Shown here piece by piece: positions 2,641-32,842 of a stretch of 33,312 nt of DNA. The translations under genes were made by a program, and so were the position numbers. Position 1 is the first letter of the stretch, and each line of letters starts with the position of its first letter. This DNA is from Helicobacteraceae bacterium 4484_230 (GTDB lineage: Bacteria > Campylobacterota > Campylobacteria > Campylobacterales > Sulfurimonadaceae), in contig MZGN01000001.1 of NCBI GenBank assembly GCA_002085085.1, positions 1 to 33,312 of the forward strand. The letters are read 5' to 3'. The notes under the pieces were generated by a model, which saw only the letters and a program-made list of their open reading frames with translations, searched no databases and was not told the DNA's origin.

Positions 2641-3984
2641 CTATTTTCCCAGACAGAAGCTGCCAAACATCTTATCAAGCATTTCATCGTTCTCAAACGG
2701 ACGTGTTATGGACGACAGTGCCCGTATCGCCTCGCCAAGATGAAATGAAAAAAGTTCAAGAAGCTGGTCATCCAGATGCTCCTCGGCCTCTTTGATCGCT
2801 TTCAGCACGCTGCGCACGGCATCAATCTGTCTCAAAGATATCAGCATCATCTCATCCGAAGAATTCTGCAGATCCATAATGCTTTTTAGCACATCAATCA
2901 GTTCAGCACTGCTTTTCTTGCAGCTTAAACGAATAGGCTCGAAACCATTAAGCCCAGCAGTATCAAAAATCTGTTTTAAGTCAGATTTGTTGATAACAGT
3001 TATGAATGTACGGTCATCTTTATAAAGATTCATAAGATCGAGAATAGTCCTATCCTCCTTATCCATCTCCGCACTGCCGTCAAAAAGTGCTATTACAATC
3101 TCACTCTCACGTATAGCATTTATGGTGCGCTCGATCCCTATGCGTTCAATCTCGTCACCAGCCTCACGAATGCCTGCCGTATCCACAATGCGAATCAAAT
3201 GGGTACCTATACGTACCTGCTCTTCAATGGTATCACGCGTAGTACCTGCTATATCGCTGACAATAGCCCGGTCATAGTCAAGAAGGCTGTTAAGAAGTGA
3301 ACTCTTCCCGACATTGGGCTTGCCGATAATAGCCACCTTGAAACCCTGCATCAATCCACGGCGGCTTTCACTTGCCCTTAAAGTCCGGCCAAGTTCATCC
3401 ATAATATTCTGCAGTCTGCTCTTCATCTGTAAAACAAGATCTTCAGGCAGATCCTCTTCTGCATAATCTATGGAAACTTCACAGTATGCCAGTATCTCAA
3501 GCAGTGCATTGCGCATATCCTCTATATACTCTTTTAGAGAACCCTTTATCTGTCTTGCCAAAATCTTTGCGGCATCTTCACTTTTTGCCTCAATAAGCTG
3601 TGCTATTGCTTCGGCTTCGGTCAAATCGATGCGGCCGTTAAAAAAAGCGCGTCTGCTGAACTCACCCGGCTCGGCAAGCCGGGCTCCCTCATGCAGTACA
3701 GACTTCAGTATCTCTTCGGCTACAACCTGTCCACCATGACACTGAAACTCCACTATATCCTCTGCAGTAAAACTGTGCGGGCCTTTAAAATAGATCACTA
3801 TCGCCTCATCGATCAGCTCCCCGTCTTTATTGTAAAGTGGGCACAAATGGGCATACCTGGGGGTAAGTTTCTCTTTTTTGGTAAGTTTTACAGCAATGGA
3901 GAGAGCGGAGTCTCCGCTTAAACGTATGATCGAGATAGAGCCTACGCCGTGAGCTGTCGCAACGGCGGCAATAGTATCAGCCAT
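2641..3984 (-). CDS. mnmE: tRNA uridine-5-carboxymethylaminomethyl(34) synthesis GTPase MnmE
   Basis: 'DTIAAVATAHGVGSISIIRLSG', G1 'GKPNVGKSSLLN', 'DTAGIRE', 'NKSDL', C-terminal 'FGSFCLGK' (C-x-G-K). Confidence 0.97.
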   Translation of the reverse strand: MADTIAAVATAHGVGSISIIRLSGDSALSIAVKLTKKEKLTPRYAHLCPLYNKDGELIDEAIVIYFKGPHSFTAEDIVEFQCHGGQVVAEEILKSVLHEGARLAEPGEFSRRAFFNGRIDLTEAEAIAQLIEAKSEDAAKILARQIKGSLKEYIEDMRNALLEILAYCEVSIDYAEEDLPEDLVLQMKSRLQNIMDELGRTLRASESRRGLMQGFKVAIIGKPNVGKSSLLNSLLDYDRAIVSDIAGTTRDTIEEQVRIGTHLIRIVDTAGIREAGDEIERIGIERTINAIRESEIVIALFDGSAEMDKEDRTILDLMNLYKDDRTFITVINKSDLKQIFDTAGLNGFEPIRLSCKKSSAELIDVLKSIMDLQNSSDEMMLISLRQIDAVRSVLKAIKEAEEHLDDQLLELFSFHLGEAIRALSSITRPFENDEMLDKMFGSFCLGK

Positions 3985-4002
3985 CTTTATTTACCATGTG
4001 GG

Positions 4003-4905
4003 TCAATAGCTGTTGTATTCGTTTATGATGATGTACTTTGAGCCGTCTCTTGTAGTGCGGATAGCTACATATTTATCATGATATCGCTCGCGCAGCTGTT
4101 TTAAAGCAATCTGTACCAAAACCCCGTCTAATATCTTTGTGCGCGCCCTGCCGTCATTGTCTATCTCTTCATAAACACCGAGCAGATAACGCGAGATGGA
4201 CTCTTCCTGATTTTTCAGAAATTCCGCTATTTCAAGTCTTAACTGCATACGATACTTTGCATTGATCCAGTTGAAAATCATATATGAGAGTGCTTTGTAG
4301 CGATACCCTTCTTTACCTATCAACAGGGCAGCATCCTCACCGCTAAACTCTATAAGCAGTGTGGTATCGTCATATACCGAGACCTCTATCGCATTAAGAG
4401 AGAAGCAAAGTTTGTCAAAAAGATCATTTATCTCCTCTTTTACCGTGGAAGCAATCTCTTCGACACTCTGCCTCTCTTCAAAAAAACCGCTTATTGCACT
4501 GTTCGTATTTCGCAAATCTTCATAATGGGGCTCTTGCGCTTCTTCCTCTTCTATCGTCTTAACTTCATCTTCAAATTCCTCTTCTGCATAAAGTTCGATC
4601 TCCTCCTCGGGCAGATCCGTCTCTATGCTCTCCTCATGATCCATCGGTGTGAAAGTGGGCTCATCATGGGAAATCGACTCTTCTGCTTCCGGTGCAGATT
4701 CCTCTTTAACCTCCTCTGGCATACTCTCTGCAGAAAGAGCTGTTTTACATTCTGCAACGACAATAGCAGGTTTGGCCAGCAAACCGAAAAGTTTTTTTGA
4801 AGGCTGCTGTATTACAACGACATTCAGTTCACTGACAGAGCAGGAGAGCTCTTTTGCAGCTTTCAGATAGGCATCTTCAAGGCTTTTTGCTTCAATCTTT
4901 ATCAT
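4003..4905 (-). CDS. jag: Jag/KhpB-like protein (Jag-N and KH/R3H-type region) with acidic linker
   Basis: Jag-N 'IKIEAKSLEDAYLKAAKELSCSVSELNVVVIQQPSKKLFGLLAKPAIV'; 'LIGKEGYRYKALSYMIFNWIN' KH motif; next to yidC. Confidence 0.85.
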   Translation of the reverse strand: MIKIEAKSLEDAYLKAAKELSCSVSELNVVVIQQPSKKLFGLLAKPAIVVAECKTALSAESMPEEVKEESAPEAEESISHDEPTFTPMDHEESIETDLPEEEIELYAEEEFEDEVKTIEEEEAQEPHYEDLRNTNSAISGFFEERQSVEEIASTVKEEINDLFDKLCFSLNAIEVSVYDDTTLLIEFSGEDAALLIGKEGYRYKALSYMIFNWINAKYRMQLRLEIAEFLKNQEESISRYLLGVYEEIDNDGRARTKILDGVLVQIALKQLRERYHDKYVAIRTTRDGSKYIIINEYNSY

Positions 4906-6544
4906 GATGCTTCTCCACCAGATGCTTCTCGTGGCGTGCGGCTTTGGCAGCCTCGAATTTCCTGTTTACTATATACTGCTGAGCTATGGAGAAGAGATTG
5001 TTCACAAACCAGTACAGCACCAAACCTGACGGGAACGTAACAAAGAAAAAGGTAAATATAACCGGCAGGAACTTGAACACTTTCTCCTGCATTGGATCAG
5101 TAAAGTTGCTTGGCGTTATCTTCTGCTGGTAATACATAGTCGCACCCATCAGGATCGGCAAAATATATGTCGGATCCATACGTGAAAGATCCTGTATCCA
5201 GAACATCCATGGAGCACCCTGAAGCTCTACCGCATTAAGAAGAACGCGGTAGATCGCAAAAAAGACAGGGATCTGAAGCAGCATGGGCATACATCCGCCA
5301 AGAGGGTTGACGCTGTGCTTTTTGTAAAGCTCCATAGTCGCTGCGTTAAGTCGCTGCGGATCGCCTTTATGCTTCTCTCTCAGCTCTTTTATTTTAGGTG
5401 CTAGCTCTTTCATTCTCTGCATAGAGAGCATACCTCTGTATGTCAACGGATAAAGCATCATGCGGATAATGATTGTCAATGCGATGATAGCCCAGCCCCA
5501 GTTGCCAAACATGCCCTCAAGCCACATAAGAACCTTGAACATCGGCGCTGAAATAAAGGTAAACCAGCCATACTCTATTGCGTTTGTGAGAACAGGATCT
5601 ATATTTTGAAGAACCTTGTAATCTTTTGGTCCGATATAGCCGCTAAAACTTATCGACTGCCCGGCATCGATGTAGACTATGGGGTTGTTGTCGCGATCTC
5701 TCTCTATAATTACGCTTGTGTCCGGTCTGAGCGAATAGAATATCGATGCAAAATACTGATCGAAAGCAGAAGCCAGGGATACGTCGTTAAACGTACTGCG
5801 CCCTTCTGTGTCCCCATCTTCAAAGATAGTGACGAGATCATTACCCGTATAGACCATCGCACCGTGTACCGCCATCATCATCTGGCCTTTATGCTCGGCA
5901 TGCTGTCCCAGATAAATAAAATATCTCTTATCTTCAGAAAGATTTACTTTTACATCATAGTGCCCGTCCTGATAAAAAGTAATCTCCTTGTTTACATTGA
6001 CACTGCTTAGTTCCTGAGTTAAAACCACTTTTAGCGAAGAACCTTCCATGTTCACCTGCTTTACATCGGAACGGTACGGGGTTTTAGCTGCCTCTTCATT
6101 GAGCTTGCTGTCGGAAAAACGGATATACAACGGTTTGGCACCGTTTTGAGGGACCATCTGTATAGGGTTGCCCTCTTTATCGTTATACTTTTCATCTTTA
6201 AGTATTTTTGATGAGATACGGCCGAGCGTATCTATCTTAATGCTGAAATGTTGGGAATCTATACTTACAAGAGTGTTTGTGCTGTCTTTGGCAATATTTT
6301 CATCTGCCGAAACACTATGTCCTATTTCAGGTTTGGCCGGTACGGATTCTACATTGTGTGCCCTGGTATCTGAAGTAACTTTTTCACTGCCATGCTGTAG
6401 AGTATTTTCTTTATGATTCTGTGCAATATCTTTCTGCGCCTGCGTCTGTTTTGGGGGGAAAATGGCCGAATACCCTATAAAGAAGACTATCGACAGAGCC
6501 ACAGCCAGCAGAAGGCGTTGGTTTGATGACATATTATCTAACAC
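4892..6544 (-). CDS. yidC: Membrane protein insertase YidC
   Basis: 'NQRLLLAVALSIVFFIGYSAIFPPKQ', C-terminal Oxa1 domain 'NWGWAIIALTIIIRMMLYPLTYRGMLSMQRMKELAPKIKELREKHKGD'. Confidence 0.97.
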   Translation of the reverse strand: MLDNMSSNQRLLLAVALSIVFFIGYSAIFPPKQTQAQKDIAQNHKENTLQHGSEKVTSDTRAHNVESVPAKPEIGHSVSADENIAKDSTNTLVSIDSQHFSIKIDTLGRISSKILKDEKYNDKEGNPIQMVPQNGAKPLYIRFSDSKLNEEAAKTPYRSDVKQVNMEGSSLKVVLTQELSSVNVNKEITFYQDGHYDVKVNLSEDKRYFIYLGQHAEHKGQMMMAVHGAMVYTGNDLVTIFEDGDTEGRSTFNDVSLASAFDQYFASIFYSLRPDTSVIIERDRDNNPIVYIDAGQSISFSGYIGPKDYKVLQNIDPVLTNAIEYGWFTFISAPMFKVLMWLEGMFGNWGWAIIALTIIIRMMLYPLTYRGMLSMQRMKELAPKIKELREKHKGDPQRLNAATMELYKKHSVNPLGGCMPMLLQIPVFFAIYRVLLNAVELQGAPWMFWIQDLSRMDPTYILPILMGATMYYQQKITPSNFTDPMQEKVFKFLPVIFTFFFVTFPSGLVLYWFVNNLFSIAQQYIVNRKFEAAKAARHEKHLVEKHHDKD

Positions 6545-21427: not shown

Positions 21428-24196
21428 TTATAGAAAAAACTTATAACGTGCGTAAAACTCCAAATTGCTTTCATTTGTACCGTTTACGCTTTGGTCATAA
21501 AAAATCCCAACTGACAGATGGTCTTCCCCAAAAAGAGCACCGCCATACCCGGCAGAACAAGAGAAGTTGAACTGGTTCGAGAAACCGTTGTAGTAGGGTG
21601 CAAATTCCGCGTACGGCCTCCAAACTCTGGTGTAACGCTGTCTGTTTACTGTTCCATAAAAGAAATTTGCACCAACTGTATAGTAGGTTTCAGGCAAAAT
21701 CAGTGCGTTCTCGGGTGCTATATGGTCGATAACCCCCCTTGATGCTCCACTCTCTCTGTAACTCCCATATTCGGCAAAAAGCCCCCATGCAAGATCCGGA
21801 TAACCATTGCGAAACTGCCTGTATAGATCGAATCGTGCCTTAAACCCTTTTCCAAGATAAATATCATCTTGTGAATGAAAACTTTGATACGCCGCCGAAA
21901 GTGAAACCATAGAGGAGTTTAGATATTGAAAATAAACCTTTGCCGATAGTTCATCTTTGTCACCCCCAAGAAGCAGATAGTTCGTCTCTTCCGATTTGAT
22001 CCTATTACCATATCCGGCTTCCAGCGCCAACCGGCTCATAACATTGTAATGAACCGCTGCTTTAAAATATACGTAATCATCCATGGCCGATCTGACACCG
22101 GCAGCAACATCGACATAGCCCCGCATAAAACGTTTTTTAAGCCCAAGCTCAAACGAACTGTCATTACCTGGCTCACCCACAAATGTATCACCTTTGTCGG
22201 CACTGTTATCCACATGCTCCACACCCGCATGTAGTGCCCAGGCATCTGCAATATAATATCTGACGGCAGCTCTGGCATAAGAACGGACGAGATCACTACG
22301 CTGCTGTAAACCTCCTTTTATATCGACAACATCGGCATACTCTTCCACAAGCTCCAACCGCTGCCTATAGAGTAAGTAGTCATATCGATTGTAACGCCGG
22401 CCTTCAAACGATAGGGTCTGAGCCAGTGAGATGTTGCCCGTCTCCACTCCTGCCAAAACTTTGTCTCTTGCAGGTAAAATTGCACTATAACGATATAAAA
22501 TATCAAGCTGATCGGCACGTGCATCGTCGGAAAGAGCGATATTAAGCTTCATCCACGGCTCAACATCTTCAAGCCTGCCCTCAAGATATCTTGCCCTGTC
22601 ATGTGCATTATGACGCAAAGCCCATAAAATCGATATTTCAGTATAAGTTTTTTGACCCAGGACCGCTTCAGATCTTTTCAGCTTGTACTCATATTTATCC
22701 ACATCAATAAAATACATCCCTGCCTTAAGATAGTTTGCAAGAAAAACCCTGTCTTTTATCATATTTGGATCATGCCTGAGCTCTTCTTTAAGCTCTTCAA
22801 AAATCTCAGCCATCATCTTCATAAAAGCATCCGTCTCTTCTCTTGCCTGCATAATATACGCGTACATAAATTTTACATCCACACTGCTTTTGTCAGAATA
22901 GAGCAGGCGCTTGACATATTCCATCGCCCTGTCTGAACGCTGGAGGGAAAAATTTCCTACTGCAAGAGGCAGCCAAAGCTCAGGATCCACACGCCCACCC
23001 TCTTCTATCTCAAAAATTATCTTTTCAAGAGAGGTCGCATTGTGATTATCTATATAAAACCACAATACCGCCGCCCTGGCTTCCACAGAATTTGAATCCA
23101 ACTGTACGGCACGCCCAAAAGCTTCTGCCGCTTTTTCATACTTGTCAAGCAGACTGTAGACCTGCCCTTTTATAAGCCAAAGATAGACATTTGACCCCAA
23201 GCTGGCATTTTTCTCTTCTTTGTCAAAAATACTCTCCAGTTCTCTATACTTTTTTTCGGTAAAAAGAGTATCGATATATGCAAGATACAGATGTTCTTTA
23301 CCAAATTTCATATACCCGTCATACGCGACTTTTTCTACAAAGTCTGGATCTTTTCCGTTATAGTAATAGAGTATACGCTCATAATCTATCAATCTTCCTT
23401 CGCCCATATTATAAAGATTGACAGAAGCTTTAGCGGCGGTGGTGAGTTCTTGCAGATACCAACCCACATCCGACAACCGTTTGTAATACGCGATTAGATC
23501 TTTGTCCGGGCCTTTCAGCTCCACATCTTTTAGTACATCAAATGATTTTTGCATCTTCTTTCGCGAAATATAGTAATCCGAAAGTTTCATTGAGGCTTTT
23601 GGTCCGAGTCGTCCCGCCTGCTGCATCTCAGTCGCAATGCGTTGCGCAGACTTTATATCACCAGTATCCGCGTAGATCCTCAAAGCCTCACCTAGCCACC
23701 TGGCTTCTATTTTTTTCGAGCGGAAAAGTTCTTCAAGGGTCCTGGCAGCGATCTCAGGCAGGCCGGTTTTATCATATATATCGATCATCTTTTCAATGTT
23801 TTCAGGCGTAGGGTCACTTTGTGCAATTGACCTTAGGATCGGTGCAGCCGTCTCATACTGATAGGAATTCAATGCATAGGAGAGTATCTTTTTTTCCAGC
23901 AATTTGTCATGGGTTTTGCTGTAAATAAACTCATAATGCCTTATTGCCTCGTCTCTTCTGTCAAGCCATTGTGATACCTCTGCCATTTTTCGATGCCAGT
24001 AGATCGATTCAGGATACTTCTTCAGCGCCCGTTTACCAACTTTATAGGCATTTTTCAAATCTGAAGAGTAGCTAAAAACCTGAAACATCAGTTTTAATTT
24101 CTCATTTTCCTGTTCCAAAGAGTCTGGTACTCCAGCCGCCAATGTATTGTTTGTTAAAAAAATAAGAACAAACAATGGTAAAAATATATACCGCAC
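21428..24196 (-). CDS. pelB: PelB-like outer-membrane export protein: signal peptide, TPRs, C-terminal beta-barrel
   Basis: Signal peptide, multiple TPR-like helices, then alternating barrel-like C-terminus ending '...NLEFYARYKFFL'; immediately downstream of pelA and the TM-TPR ORF. GTG start. Confidence 0.75.
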   Translation of the reverse strand: MRYIFLPLFVLIFLTNNTLAAGVPDSLEQENEKLKLMFQVFSYSSDLKNAYKVGKRALKKYPESIYWHRKMAEVSQWLDRRDEAIRHYEFIYSKTHDKLLEKKILSYALNSYQYETAAPILRSIAQSDPTPENIEKMIDIYDKTGLPEIAARTLEELFRSKKIEARWLGEALRIYADTGDIKSAQRIATEMQQAGRLGPKASMKLSDYYISRKKMQKSFDVLKDVELKGPDKDLIAYYKRLSDVGWYLQELTTAAKASVNLYNMGEGRLIDYERILYYYNGKDPDFVEKVAYDGYMKFGKEHLYLAYIDTLFTEKKYRELESIFDKEEKNASLGSNVYLWLIKGQVYSLLDKYEKAAEAFGRAVQLDSNSVEARAAVLWFYIDNHNATSLEKIIFEIEEGGRVDPELWLPLAVGNFSLQRSDRAMEYVKRLLYSDKSSVDVKFMYAYIMQAREETDAFMKMMAEIFEELKEELRHDPNMIKDRVFLANYLKAGMYFIDVDKYEYKLKRSEAVLGQKTYTEISILWALRHNAHDRARYLEGRLEDVEPWMKLNIALSDDARADQLDILYRYSAILPARDKVLAGVETGNISLAQTLSFEGRRYNRYDYLLYRQRLELVEEYADVVDIKGGLQQRSDLVRSYARAAVRYYIADAWALHAGVEHVDNSADKGDTFVGEPGNDSSFELGLKKRFMRGYVDVAAGVRSAMDDYVYFKAAVHYNVMSRLALEAGYGNRIKSEETNYLLLGGDKDELSAKVYFQYLNSSMVSLSAAYQSFHSQDDIYLGKGFKARFDLYRQFRNGYPDLAWGLFAEYGSYRESGASRGVIDHIAPENALILPETYYTVGANFFYGTVNRQRYTRVWRPYAEFAPYYNGFSNQFNFSCSAGYGGALFGEDHLSVGIFYDQSVNGTNESNLEFYARYKFFL

Positions 24197-25275
24197 TATC
24201 GTTCCTGCTCTTTAAGCAATTTTACCGAAAGTTTTTTTGCGGCTTCAAGCCTGTCCATAGAGAGGTACAGCTTAATAAATTTTACTGTCATATCTTCATC
24301 TTTTAGATAGCGTTCCTCATAACTTTGAGCCAATTTAATGGCCCTGTCGTTCAATCCACCACCTACAAGCACCTCAACAGCCTTTAGCAAATATCTCTTT
24401 TTTGTTTTGTAGTCATCACAATTTTTATAAAGGGAGATAAACATATCGGACGATTGGACAAAATCTCCTGCAGTAGCATGCAATTGGGCCAGCTCTTCAT
24501 TGTAATCCGGATCGGTTTCAGCCAATTTGGCAAGCGTCTGCAGTGCTTTTTCATAATTTTTATCTTCAATATAAAGAGTATATGCCACATTTAGCCATTT
24601 TTGTGACTCCCCGCCGAAAAGACTATTTAATTTTTCTACACACCAAAGCCGTGTTTTAAGCTCTTGCGGCTCCGTTGCCATATAAACACACTGCTCAAGA
24701 GCAAAAAGATCGCCTGCTTCATAAAGAGGTCTTAAAAATGCCAATGCCTCTTTTTCCATAGAGAGATCCATAGCATATCCATACCAGACAAGAGCACTCT
24801 CCCTGCTAAAAAGTTGCTTTTGCAATACATGATCGATTACGACAGCCATCTCCTCTTTTATTTCGCCGATAAACTCAGGATCACTGCTGTAACCGGCCTG
24901 TGTTTTCAGCAGCCTGTAATCCAACAACTCCAACTCTTCAGCAATCTGGGAACTTTCAGACTTTCGCAATACACTGATAAGTTTTTTCGTAAGGTCGTAA
25001 TTGCCGTTTTCCAGGCTCACTTTGGCCGTTGCAAGCATCAAGCTGATATTTTCCGGCTCCAGCCTCAACATATTTTCCAAATATACGCCAGTAAGCTCAT
25101 AGTTGCTTTTCTCCTCAAACACCTGTTTATGCAACATTGTCTTCGGATAAAGTATAAACAGTATAAAAACGAAAACGGAAAAGATAAACAGTATCTCTTT
25201 TGAGCTGGCAACCTCTTTGTGGTTTGCATGGATCTCGGCTATCTCTTCACCTGCATCGTACAGTGACATTCGCAT
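24196..25275 (-). CDS. Inner-membrane-anchored TPR protein, probable N-terminal half of a split PelB
   Basis: Single TM (ILFIFSVFVFILFILYP) and TPR-like repeats; stop overlaps the pelB start by 1 nt; position in pel locus. Confidence 0.65.
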   Translation of the reverse strand: MRMSLYDAGEEIAEIHANHKEVASSKEILFIFSVFVFILFILYPKTMLHKQVFEEKSNYELTGVYLENMLRLEPENISLMLATAKVSLENGNYDLTKKLISVLRKSESSQIAEELELLDYRLLKTQAGYSSDPEFIGEIKEEMAVVIDHVLQKQLFSRESALVWYGYAMDLSMEKEALAFLRPLYEAGDLFALEQCVYMATEPQELKTRLWCVEKLNSLFGGESQKWLNVAYTLYIEDKNYEKALQTLAKLAETDPDYNEELAQLHATAGDFVQSSDMFISLYKNCDDYKTKKRYLLKAVEVLVGGGLNDRAIKLAQSYEERYLKDEDMTVKFIKLYLSMDRLEAAKKLSVKLLKEQER

Positions 25276-28024
25276 CCCTTTCAGTATGATACTTTAGTGA
25301 AACCCTGCCTGAAGAGACCGTCCGCTCGTCCGCTTGAGGTACGGCATCCAAACGGCAGTTATCCGCGAGCTGGTAATTAAACTCAAGGGGAATATTGGCA
25401 TGAAAGCGCATAAACACCTCTTTTGCAGAGCGCTTGTGTGAAAGCAGCTTGCCGTTCGAATCGACCAGATAATTCTGCCTCTTCTGCTTGCCTGCAATAC
25501 TAAAGCGGTGCGTACTACCGCTATCAAGATGCAGATAGTTACCGCTTGAATGCTTTTTGATTCCCGCAACTCCTACAGAAAGGTCGAAATCGATAAAACC
25601 GCTCTCCGGCAGACGAAGAGTTTTAAGAGAGTGCATGCCTGCTGCCAGCCATTCATTCCCATCTTTAGCCATAGATACTTCATAAAAGTCCATAGCTTTT
25701 AAAATATATTCCGACGTATATATAGGCATCACCTCCTGTACCATAGCCCAGTCGAAAACCGTATGAAGTGCCCTTAGTGAAGCTTTTTTTGAACCGGAAT
25801 AGAGGTGAAAGTAGATATCTATCGGCTTGAAACGCCTTGGGGCATCGGTCAGCTTAAAGGTTTGGATCACCTTTTTAAAACCCCAAAATGGCCCCAGCCA
25901 ATTGTTTGTATATACATTTTCATTCTGTGCGGCCGTAAATATCTGATAATAATTGCCTCTTTTGATACCCATAGGGGAGATAAGGCTCAGCCACGGGCTG
26001 GTATTTGTAGCCATCGTATCACCGCCGTTGATCTGTAAAATATTATTTTTGTAAACATATGACAGTGTTGTCTCTGTCGGCATACAGTCACCGCTCCAGA
26101 AAACCATATTGGTCGATCTTCCTTCAGGTTCAAGTCTGGTATTGATATATCTTAAAGATCCCAGAAGCTCCCGGTCAAGTGAAAAATCATAGTTCTTTAC
26201 GTTAAGACGGTATTTTGGATCCAGATGGCCGTCTACTATTTTTCCCCAATAAAACGGATGGGTATAGGTATGCGTAGCCGCCTCAACATTCTCAAGCGCA
26301 AAAATACGGCGCGCGATCTTTTCAAGACTGGGACTGAGTTTTGGATAAAGCCCATACGCCGCAGTCTCCCCTTCTATGATAGAGACGGATAACGGTATGT
26401 GGTATTTGGTAAAGATCTCATCATAAAGCACCTGCCCGGAAAAAAGCTCCGGGTTCCACTCGGCCCTGTTCATGATTCCGTCTCCGTCAATATGCACAAA
26501 AAGCAGCCGCCTGCCATTTTCTGTCGTTACATCCGGAGCCGGCAGCAGCGGGAGCCGCAGTGATTCACGCAACAGTTTGAAAGGGTTGGCGATCCAGAGA
26601 TTCTCCTGGTTTATCTCGGCCATTACCGCCCCCTCGAACGCGTATCCGCCCCATGGAGTAATAGCGGCCAACACACTCGTGCCTCTTGCATACTTCACAC
26701 TGCACAAAGGTTTTGCGTTATCCGGCATAAACAATGATTCACCCGAAGGAATAAAGGGCTCTATTTCAAAACCCATACGGGAGTTATCATATATCAGCCT
26801 GCCCCTATTTTGATATCCGGGCTTTATGGCTAACGGTTCCACGGATATCTTAAACATATCGAACAGTTTTTTATGCTTTTCAGCCTCGATAGACTCCAGC
26901 ATCAGCAACTTAATACCGCTGTTATACAAACCCGCCATCTTCGCTTCAAACTTTTTTGGGTATTTTACGGCATAGGTTCCGTTGATCCATACTGTAACGC
27001 CGGCATAGCGGTCAACATCGGGCGGACGAAGCTTCCACTCGGAAATCGGCTTGATCACAGGAATATAACCCATATATTCCAGCGACATTGCAAGGTAAAG
27101 AAAAGATGTGGAGTACATTTTATCATCACCTGGCGTTCCATCAAACTCCGTATCATCATAAAGCAGCAACACCTCCCGCCTGACTGCTATTTTGCTGCTT
27201 TTGCCAAAGCGCTGCAGGTATCGGTCGGCAACATACGGGATCAGTCCCAGCTCTTCAATGGATGCAATCGCTTTTTGTATCTTCTTCTCTTCTTTCATAG
27301 GCAGATAATCGACGGCGATAACAGGTATATGATACTCTTGTATCTTTTTTACTTGGGCAAGAAGCCATTTGCGGTCTGCTTCGGAAACATTTTTATATTT
27401 AAGCTCTTTGCCCGAGAGTCCGTGAAAAAGCGACTCAAAAAGGACAGCCTCGATGCAGCCGTGCACATCATCAATAAGCTCAAATCCGCGATTTATAATC
27501 AGCTTGCACTCCGGATAACGACTATGAAACTCTTTGATCAGGGAAATCAGCCCAAGGCGCATCCGTTCTACATCTTTTTTCTCTTTCACCGCAAGAGTGT
27601 AGGAGTCCAGCGTGTCAAAGAAAAAATTTTTAAAACCCTTTTTTAGTAAAGGGCCGATAACTTTTTCAAAAAAGAAATGCCGATAGGCTTTACTTCCCAC
27701 ATCCACAACCGCTGCATTCCAGATGTCATTTTTGCCAATTATCCACTCCGGATTAACCTCGGAATAGTAAGAGAGCTCTTTCTCAACCTCGCCTACACTG
27801 ACATATGCGTAGATATTTTTTTTATAAAGTTTAAAACCATGCGATGCGGTGTCTACATGTTCCGGCTGAAGGATGATGTAATCATGTATGCCTACCTGGC
27901 TGTACGAAATATCATCGCCATAGTAGACCATCGCGCTTTTTCTTTCCAATGATGAGGCATAAAGTGCCTGGAAGGTAAAAACTACAAACAGGATTGATAT
28001 TTTAACGAAGCATAAAAGTTTCAT
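25247..28024 (-). CDS. pelA: PelA-like bifunctional glycoside hydrolase / polysaccharide deacetylase
   Basis: N-terminal PelA hydrolase-type 'VYYGDDISYSQVGIHDYIILQPEHVD...FFFDTLDSY'; deacetylase motifs 'VHIDGDGIMNRAEW' and 'ATHTYTHPFYW'. Confidence 0.92.
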   Translation of the reverse strand: MKLLCFVKISILFVVFTFQALYASSLERKSAMVYYGDDISYSQVGIHDYIILQPEHVDTASHGFKLYKKNIYAYVSVGEVEKELSYYSEVNPEWIIGKNDIWNAAVVDVGSKAYRHFFFEKVIGPLLKKGFKNFFFDTLDSYTLAVKEKKDVERMRLGLISLIKEFHSRYPECKLIINRGFELIDDVHGCIEAVLFESLFHGLSGKELKYKNVSEADRKWLLAQVKKIQEYHIPVIAVDYLPMKEEKKIQKAIASIEELGLIPYVADRYLQRFGKSSKIAVRREVLLLYDDTEFDGTPGDDKMYSTSFLYLAMSLEYMGYIPVIKPISEWKLRPPDVDRYAGVTVWINGTYAVKYPKKFEAKMAGLYNSGIKLLMLESIEAEKHKKLFDMFKISVEPLAIKPGYQNRGRLIYDNSRMGFEIEPFIPSGESLFMPDNAKPLCSVKYARGTSVLAAITPWGGYAFEGAVMAEINQENLWIANPFKLLRESLRLPLLPAPDVTTENGRRLLFVHIDGDGIMNRAEWNPELFSGQVLYDEIFTKYHIPLSVSIIEGETAAYGLYPKLSPSLEKIARRIFALENVEAATHTYTHPFYWGKIVDGHLDPKYRLNVKNYDFSLDRELLGSLRYINTRLEPEGRSTNMVFWSGDCMPTETTLSYVYKNNILQINGGDTMATNTSPWLSLISPMGIKRGNYYQIFTAAQNENVYTNNWLGPFWGFKKVIQTFKLTDAPRRFKPIDIYFHLYSGSKKASLRALHTVFDWAMVQEVMPIYTSEYILKAMDFYEVSMAKDGNEWLAAGMHSLKTLRLPESGFIDFDLSVGVAGIKKHSSGNYLHLDSGSTHRFSIAGKQKRQNYLVDSNGKLLSHKRSAKEVFMRFHANIPLEFNYQLADNCRLDAVPQADERTVSSGRVSLKYHTERDANVTVRCR

Positions 28025-29240
28025 ATTCCAACTCCCTCAACTCTCGTCTCAACACAAAAAGGCTGCCTATAAATACTATCAACAAAGATACAGCATAACC
28101 ATAACCAAACATAGACGGCCCCAGGTAGATAGACACGAAAGAGAGTGATCCATTAAGAAAGAAAAACAGAAGGGACATCCACATCGCGATCACTCTTCTG
28201 TCAATATAGTAAAGCAGAGCCATAACTGACATAAAACCCAACTGAAGCTGCGCGCCTATGGTGAGAATATGAAACAGCCCAAGATAGATAAGCTTAAGCG
28301 TCGCGCCATTGCGTATGGCATCGAAAAACAGTTCATATTTTTCTGCAAAATCGGCCTCGAGACGAAAAAAGAAAATTGCCATACCCGGCAAAATAGAGAG
28401 ATAGGCGATAAAAATCGGCATATCGTACACTATGGAGGCATGCAGCTTTCCAATTACTTCATAACCGGTCAGGGGGTGGTACCAAAATACAAATTTATCC
28501 ACCCATACTCCCAGGTTGTAAAAAAAGCCCGCAAAACCTAAACTCCAGTAAAAATTTTTACTATTGAAAAAACGAAAACTTATCAATCTTGAAGATTTAT
28601 ATGTCTTGGTGATCAGGGTCATCATAATGGCTAGAAGCAGAGCGTTTCCAAGAAAGAAAATAAAGATCATATTTTCAAGATTTTTTCCAAAATAGAAAGA
28701 GAGCACAATGATCAGGCCATACGAAAGGGCAAATGCAATCAATACGGAACGGTAATATTTCAGACTGGCTGCCAGTATGTTTGAAATCCAAACACCAGAG
28801 AGCACCAAAAAGGTTGAAAGTACGCCGATGGCAAACAGATTGCCCTGTTCTGGAAAAACAAAAAGCAAAAAAGGATATACAAAAACAAAACCTACTATCC
28901 AGATAATTAAAAGTGCTCCATAGTAGGCCGGCAAAAGTTCATCCTCTCTGCCTGCAAATATCTCATCAGCGATAAACCTGGTAAAAGGCAACTGCATAAA
29001 ACCTGTAATTATCATGCTTGAAGCCAATGCTATCGCGTAAGTGATGACAATCTGAAACTGAATTACACTCGTATCCATTTTCATTGTCGCAAGGTTGACA
29101 AAACCTACAAAAAGAATTGCAACAATCGAGATGACCCATGGGCCTGAGCTCAGCAGTGCCGAATAGCCGTAAACTTTTGCCAATGAGAATAGTCTGTCTT
29201 TTTTCAGTACTCTTCGAAGCTCAAATCCTATTCCGGCCAT
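28002..29240 (-). CDS. pelG: PelG, polytopic membrane protein for Pel export
   Basis: 'MAGIGFELRRVLKKDRLFSLAKVYGYSALLSSGPWVISI' and about 12 TM segments. Confidence 0.94.
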   Translation of the reverse strand: MAGIGFELRRVLKKDRLFSLAKVYGYSALLSSGPWVISIVAILFVGFVNLATMKMDTSVIQFQIVITYAIALASSMIITGFMQLPFTRFIADEIFAGREDELLPAYYGALLIIWIVGFVFVYPFLLFVFPEQGNLFAIGVLSTFLVLSGVWISNILAASLKYYRSVLIAFALSYGLIIVLSFYFGKNLENMIFIFFLGNALLLAIMMTLITKTYKSSRLISFRFFNSKNFYWSLGFAGFFYNLGVWVDKFVFWYHPLTGYEVIGKLHASIVYDMPIFIAYLSILPGMAIFFFRLEADFAEKYELFFDAIRNGATLKLIYLGLFHILTIGAQLQLGFMSVMALLYYIDRRVIAMWMSLLFFFLNGSLSFVSIYLGPSMFGYGYAVSLLIVFIGSLFVLRRELRELEYETFMLR

Positions 29241-30732: not shown

Positions 30733-31681
30733 ATACTTGCGAACCCTCCTTCCACTGTTCTACCAATGGATTAAGCAGCATATTTATCTGTAAACTCTCT
30801 GCGCCGCTTAACAACTTCTTCACTATTGAGAACTCTCTTTTATTATAATGGATTTCCGCCAGGTAGGGAATCATAAATTCATTATTTCGGCCGCCGTATC
30901 TTACTGCCAACTCAAGATATGCCTCCGCGCTGTCATAATCTTTCAGCATCAAGGAGCATCTCCCAAGCAGCAGGCACAACTTTCCATTCTCGGGGTTTGT
31001 CCTTAAAGACTCTTTGGCATATTTCTGAACTTCCCTGGCAATAAACTCCTTCAGGTCACTATCGGCAAGCTCAAAATAAACTATATCCCAATAAAGAAAT
31101 GCGAGCTCTTCCGCGAGTTTCGCTTTCTCTTCCCGTCCGGATACATTTTCTATAGCCTGCAGTTTCTGATGTATCTGACTGTTTATACCGCGCTCAAGCT
31201 TGTCTATAACCGCAAAACCATAAAGCCTGATCTCATCATTTCGGTCGGAAAGACTGTTTTTTATCAATGCAATATCATTTTTGCCTACACTCTCTACCAA
31301 GGAGACCAGTGCCTTCATCTTCAATGATTCAGACATTACGTCGCCGCCAAGTATGCGCCCCATAGAAGCCTCACCAAAAATCCTGCGAACCTCCGGGAAC
31401 TCGCTGCTGAAACCCGCCATATCGATATACTCGACATTACTCAACTGCTCTTCGTATTTAACTGTTCTAAGGTAGTAGATGATCCAAGCCGTCATCAAAA
31501 AGCCTACCAGCGGGAGCGCTACATTAAAAACCCAGAAAAAAATAAAAATTTTACTCTTTTCGCCAGGGAATTTTTCCCCAAGCATATATATAGAGACCAA
31601 TGCCGGAAAAATAGATACGATTGAAAATACCAGATAAATATAACCCAGAGGTTTATCCAGGAAAAAGAGCCATAGACTCAT
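30719..31681 (-). CDS. pelE: PelE, TM plus TPR protein
   Basis: Two N-terminal TM segments, HEAT/TPR-like helical repeats, located between pelD and pelF. Confidence 0.82.
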   Translation of the reverse strand: MSLWLFFLDKPLGYIYLVFSIVSIFPALVSIYMLGEKFPGEKSKIFIFFWVFNVALPLVGFLMTAWIIYYLRTVKYEEQLSNVEYIDMAGFSSEFPEVRRIFGEASMGRILGGDVMSESLKMKALVSLVESVGKNDIALIKNSLSDRNDEIRLYGFAVIDKLERGINSQIHQKLQAIENVSGREEKAKLAEELAFLYWDIVYFELADSDLKEFIAREVQKYAKESLRTNPENGKLCLLLGRCSLMLKDYDSAEAYLELAVRYGGRNNEFMIPYLAEIHYNKREFSIVKKLLSGAESLQINMLLNPLVEQWKEGSQVYGKE

Positions 31682-32283
31682 TCTTGTCCCAATACAAAAG
31701 ATTCGATCAAATCGATTTTAGAAACAGGAAAGCTGGCTATTTCAACCAGATTGGAATCTTTGATCTCCACATCCTGCTTGACTTTTTCCATATAACCATG
31801 CACTGATGAAACATCTGAAAAAGGAAAGAGTATAGCGATCACATCGGCCTTGTCTGTACTTGTAGAGCTCATAATATCCAAAGCCCTTAAATTCTTTTCG
31901 ACAACACTTAATATAAGATGGGTTTTCAGTTTACTTTTTGAACGGAATATCAAAACTGTCGATCTGGCACTATGTTTTTTATAAAGACGGTTCAGCCTAT
32001 AGATCTCAAAACGGAAGTTTTCCTGAAAATATGGCATAAAATCTCTGATGCCGTTCAGTATCCTCATTTTATGCAACTCGTCAAACATATAATTTACTAA
32101 AATTGAAATAGAGATAAGGGCGTCTTTGTTGAATGACATAAACGGCATCTCCTCGATCGCAAAAATACCTACGACGGTATCATCTGAAACTGCCGGTATG
32201 ACAGCAAGGTATTTACCGGCGCTGTACTCTTCATCCCCGCTGACATAAATCGGCATCTTTTTTTCAAAAACATCAACAACCAT
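31678..32283 (-). CDS. pelD: PelD C-terminal part: end of GAF and degenerate GGDEF c-di-GMP-receptor domain
   Basis: 'GKYLAVIPAVSDDTVVGIFAIEEMPFMSFNKDALISISILVNYMFDEL' (GAF end) and degenerate GGDEF with RxxD ('LRALD'); overlaps the N-terminal ORF by 11 nt in another frame. Confidence 0.75.
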   Translation of the reverse strand: MVVDVFEKKMPIYVSGDEEYSAGKYLAVIPAVSDDTVVGIFAIEEMPFMSFNKDALISISILVNYMFDELHKMRILNGIRDFMPYFQENFRFEIYRLNRLYKKHSARSTVLIFRSKSKLKTHLILSVVEKNLRALDIMSSTSTDKADVIAILFPFSDVSSVHGYMEKVKQDVEIKDSNLVEIASFPVSKIDLIESFVLGQE

Positions 32284-32842
32284 CAGATCTCTCTATTGTA
32301 AATACCTTCTTCAACAGCTGTAAGAACTGCTGAAAAAAATCATCTCTGCTTCTGGCGTAAAAATCGTCTTTTATTTTTCGTATAGAGTTCTGAATGCTCA
32401 TTGGCTTGACCACATAGCTTTTCTCTATCTGGTCATGTGAGATCTTCAGGGTATAGAAAGCCTTGCTTAACTCAAACAATTTATGCCTTGTAAACTCCGC
32501 TTCCGTTTTCTGCAATATGATTGTTTGTGTCCAGTAATAGTGAAATTCTCCGAAGATCAATACCAAAACAAGTTCACTCAAAAAGACTTCATAAAAAAAG
32601 TCCGGATAACCGAACTTCATTGCGACACCAAATAGAGATATCGCCAACAAACCGCTGGAAATGCCGTGAAACAGAGTGATTATTGTTAATACGATAGTTA
32701 AAAAAGATACGGAACTCTCAAGCATACAAATATCTTGAGGGTTGGTAAAATAACCCGCACCCAGATAGATACCGACTATTGCTACCGTCTCCAGATAGGG
32801 ATAGTTCAGAAGTGTCTTTCTGGCTTTATTGGTTAAAAGCAT
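32273..32842 (-). CDS. pelD: PelD N-terminal part: TM region, coiled coil and beginning of GAF
   Basis: Several TM segments then '...DDFFQQFLQLLKKVFTIERSDGC*'; ends abruptly at the start of the GAF domain. Confidence 0.75.
   Translation of the reverse strand: MLLTNKARKTLLNYPYLETVAIVGIYLGAGYFTNPQDICMLESSVSFLTIVLTIITLFHGISSGLLAISLFGVAMKFGYPDFFYEVFLSELVLVLIFGEFHYYWTQTIILQKTEAEFTRHKLFELSKAFYTLKISHDQIEKSYVVKPMSIQNSIRKIKDDFYARSRDDFFQQFLQLLKKVFTIERSDGC

Follow-up and report, generated by a model that had tools for sequence, protein, structure and literature searches.

The gene for PelD, the c-di-GMP receptor of the Pel complex, is split in the metagenome-assembled genome (MAG) that we analyzed, and from the deletion pattern across the whole genome we are highly confident that this split is an artefact of metagenome assembly. 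The window, a stretch of 33,312 nucleotides, is the whole of contig C65 of assembly G000, which is 65.9% complete and comprises 141 contigs. As assembled, PelD is not one continuous membrane-GAF-GGDEF chain and is instead spread over two ORFs, a state that we attribute, very probably, to the assembly. The features of the locus are as follows:

32273..32842, minus strand: N-terminal pelD ORF, 189 aa, with the membrane helices and the linker, reaching to where the GAF domain starts (ORF call, alignment to the PelD of relative G006)
31678..32283, minus strand: C-terminal pelD ORF, 201 aa, with the remaining GAF and the degenerate GGDEF domain carrying an RALD (RxxD) motif (ORF call, PF16963, PelD structures, alignment to G006)
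~32284..32292, minus strand: pelD deletion breakpoint, with ~77-86 nt (25-29 codons) absent relative to G006 and L062

The N-terminal ORF ends in ...LKKVFTIERSDGC* and the C-terminal ORF begins with MVVDVFEKKMPIYVSGDEEYS..., and the two overlap by 11 nt (ATGGTTGTTGA) in two different frames. The ATG of the C-terminal ORF is directly preceded by TAG-AGA-GAT-CTG, and an AGAGA micro-repeat is found at the breakpoint. A first-pass annotation of this DNA had described pelD as two ORFs with an 11-nt overlap and a change of frame, and the coordinates on the minus strand bear this out. Its identification of the gene also holds, as the C-terminal ORF matches both the Pfam family PelD_GGDEF (PF16963; 2.2e-11, 44.1 bits where the cut-off is 27) and the solved Pseudomonas aeruginosa PelD chains (~1e-4), and the N-terminal ORF corresponds to the membrane portion and linker of PelD in relatives.

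PelD has four predicted transmembrane helices followed by a GAF and a degenerate GGDEF domain, binds c-di-GMP via R402 and an RxxD motif, and forms a complex with PelE, PelG, and PelF (PMC8461298). In B. cereus, c-di-GMP binding likewise needs RxxD and the equivalent Arg (PMC7112168). The window protein resembles the PelD of other Pel operons (P. aeruginosa, PDB 4DMZ/4DN0; the single-ORF L062 and G006) in its membrane part, the remainder of its GAF domain, and a degenerate GGDEF domain in which the RALD of the RxxD site aligns with RSLD in relatives and RGLD in 4euv. It also resembles the single-ORF PelD loci of Campylobacterota in gene order: pelD has a pelC-like gene on one side and pelE on the other, after which come pelF, pelG, pelA, and pelB, as in relatives. 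Unlike P. aeruginosa PelD, the window protein has Lys rather than Arg at the position of R402 (GYMEK versus GYLQR, near the C-terminus of the C-terminal ORF), where R402 is identified as the Arg of GYLQR from the numbering of the aligned P. aeruginosa sequence, with R367 as the starting point. Most relatives have Arg at this position and L013 has Lys, as in the window; judged from the alignment, a Lys here may or may not bind c-di-GMP. A further difference from the PelD of P. aeruginosa and Campylobacterota is that the window pelD lacks the first part of the GAF domain, ~25-29 codons, and is shifted in frame, so that a complete GAF domain is not present in the assembled sequence.

To measure the extent of the loss, we aligned both ORFs to the PelD of relatives. 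The N-terminal ORF covers residues 18-198 of the G006 PelD with 57% identity, and the C-terminal ORF aligns from residue 225 of the G006 and G023 proteins, both single 425-aa ORFs, with 44% identity. In the L062 alignment, aligned residues stop at 191 and restart at 224, which is residue 4 of the C-terminal ORF and places its residue 1 at 221. Counted between the last codon of the N-terminal ORF and the first codon of the C-terminal ORF, the two nearest relatives imply a loss of 77 nt (G006) or 86 nt (L062); both values are of the form 3n+2, as the change of frame requires. The missing segment is where the GAF domain begins. The gap and frame shift in the alignments to G006, G023, and L062 thus agree with the first-pass proposal of an out-of-frame internal loss within the GAF domain, which had been put at 25-45 residues; the ~25-29 codons that we measure lie near the low end of that range.

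Relatives encode PelD in one piece. All 14 homologues from a first search have one frame each, 408-483 aa long, and nearly all are single-frame in a wider family scan (47 matches in 45 of 228 genomes) and in a scan of genome contigs (26 loci). A split with the boundaries or the loss of the window was found in none of the three. Three candidates were rejected as comparable cases: the pelD fragments of G151 stop at contig ends, the split pelD of G148/L082 is a simple frameshift without residue loss and is accompanied by a split pelE, and G239/L080 has many frameshifts and a contig title that ends in ‘pilon’. In L082 (VCAX01000016.1, ‘symbiont_bin2’, a high-coverage symbiont MAG), pelD and pelE are each split by frame changes (3141-4501 and 4485-5613), and these splits could be real decay of pel in a symbiont. 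The sole other genome of the same genus carries neither PelD nor PelG, and a second genome of the same species was not found.

These comparisons bear on the proposal that pelD encodes a genuine two-piece receptor, in which translational coupling yields two separate proteins, a membrane half and a soluble, untethered half that binds c-di-GMP. The ATG of the C-terminal ORF does overlap the stop of the N-terminal ORF and the RxxD motif is kept, so translation of a binding half is possible. However, the first-pass annotation had itself named close relatives with an identical two-ORF pelD and conserved boundaries as the sign of a genuine split, and we found no relative that is split at the same place or with the same loss. 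In addition, the start of the GAF domain is missing, which would leave the soluble piece without part of its fold, and similar deletions occur throughout the MAG. By contrast, a two-ORF pelB is common to relatives. We therefore give this reading almost no weight, and on the sequences compared nothing supports a conserved two-piece PelD.

The split of pelB itself, into ORFs of 922 aa (21428-24196) and 359 aa (24196-25275) on the minus strand, looks genuine on sequence comparison, as the arrangement is common to G016, G029, G002, and G033; G039 has one ORF to which both parts align. A second gene of the operon, pelG, carries a loss of its own:

28280..28295, minus strand: pelG deletion breakpoint, inside pelG (28002-29240), with 45 codons (135 nt, in frame) gone between ...TLKLI and YLGLFHI...

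The window PelG is 412 aa long and lacks exactly 45 aligned residues, with clean flanks, that are present in 8 of 8 aligned relatives; a full single-frame pelG is carried by 14 relatives. The pelG loss is probably the same kind of artefact as the loss in pelD. Because the operon thus carries two big private losses, of which only the pelG loss keeps the frame, we undertook a genome-wide test.

Using tblastn chaining, we compared 410,882 bases of G000 with 1.6 Mb of G016, a relative assembled as a single contig. Across 153 genes and 49,009 aligned residues, we find 19 deletions and 6 insertions of at least 24 nt. At 60 nt or more there are 14 deletions in G000 relative to G016 and no insertions; 13 of these deletions measure 69-161 nt, and the remaining one, which spans 647 nt and is flanked by pieces of low identity, is doubtful. 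pelD fell below the identity filter of this count and was entered in an ORF-pair analysis instead. As a control, the same procedure was applied to loci of other genomes, a small set of 43 genes and 14,071 residues centred on pel clusters, and gave no deletions, against ~4 expected at the G000 rate (P ~0.02). The G000 deletions are clean losses of ~30-165 nt in conserved genes, with sizes that span all three frame classes, and inspection by eye found no clear motif shared by their junctions.

Several of the affected genes are ones that a cell can hardly do without. For instance, secA (contig C75, locus L201, 9439-11692) is broken into four pieces. Three segments are gone from it, of 69, 165, and 92 nt, and the 92-nt loss is out of frame; the 165-nt loss was read from the sequences, as the aligner had divided it into 129 + 36. 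G000 yielded no other secA, and secA is in pieces in none of 30 other genomes searched, G008 showing just a partial frame. In a second example, groEL has a 31-nt loss that is out of frame. SecA and GroEL are essential, and a four-piece secA in a living cell is not credible. Deletions are also found in gatB, an lptF/G gene, and genes for cytochrome c assembly, an ABC-F protein (named from the sequence of the gene), a semialdehyde dehydrogenase, a PLP enzyme, a response regulator, and a protein of the FAD/fumarate-reductase type.

The survey speaks to two explanations in which the pelD deletion is real. In the first, the genome is undergoing reductive decay and pelD is one among many true pseudogenes, as deletions in many genes on many contigs might suggest. 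Such decay is expected to bring nonsense mutations and single-base frameshifts, whereas decay by point mutation is absent here: over ~42,000 aligned residues, almost all stops either precede the start or sit where a deletion has joined two ends, and only three small frame changes were seen. Moreover, the essential secA, groEL, and gatB would be lost, and we regard this explanation as extremely improbable. In the second, which the first-pass annotation had listed as an option, the sampled population carries an inactivating deletion that removed part of the GAF domain and with it the c-di-GMP control of Pel. The loss in pelD is clean and out of frame, and the family does contain a pel operon with frameshifted pelD and pelE (L082), so decay of pel may occur. 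Against this, deletions in this size class recur across the MAG, indispensable genes included, and the remaining pel genes are open and well aligned, the pelG loss excepted. A real pelD deletion could exist alongside artefacts elsewhere, and we consider an inactivating deletion unlikely, if less so than decay of the whole genome.

The best explanation for the split of pelD is a systematic defect of the assembly, of which it is a single instance. We judge it an artefact because the same assembly has similar clean losses elsewhere, including in the essential secA and groEL, a pattern that matches the assembly error also raised by the first-pass annotation. The losses resemble local deletion errors in MAGs in being clean, ~30-165 nt long, in conserved genes, random with respect to frame, and present in essential genes too; a literature search on this kind of MAG artefact found no paper describing the exact pattern. 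We propose that pelD is normally a single ORF and that the contig lost ~77-86 nt of it at ~32284-32292, possibly through mis-joined coverage gaps or the collapse of a strain bubble in the assembler. The start of the gene would thereby have been joined to its remainder out of frame, and both the stop and the internal ATG would be spurious. The missing bases would be present in the organism, which probably encodes an ordinary one-piece PelD that serves the Pel complex as its usual c-di-GMP receptor, with membrane, GAF, and degenerate GGDEF parts in a single chain. This result averts a false claim that c-di-GMP control of Pel was lost or re-engineered, and it calls for distrust of any other apparent pseudogene, domain loss, or split gene in this MAG that has yet to be checked against reads.
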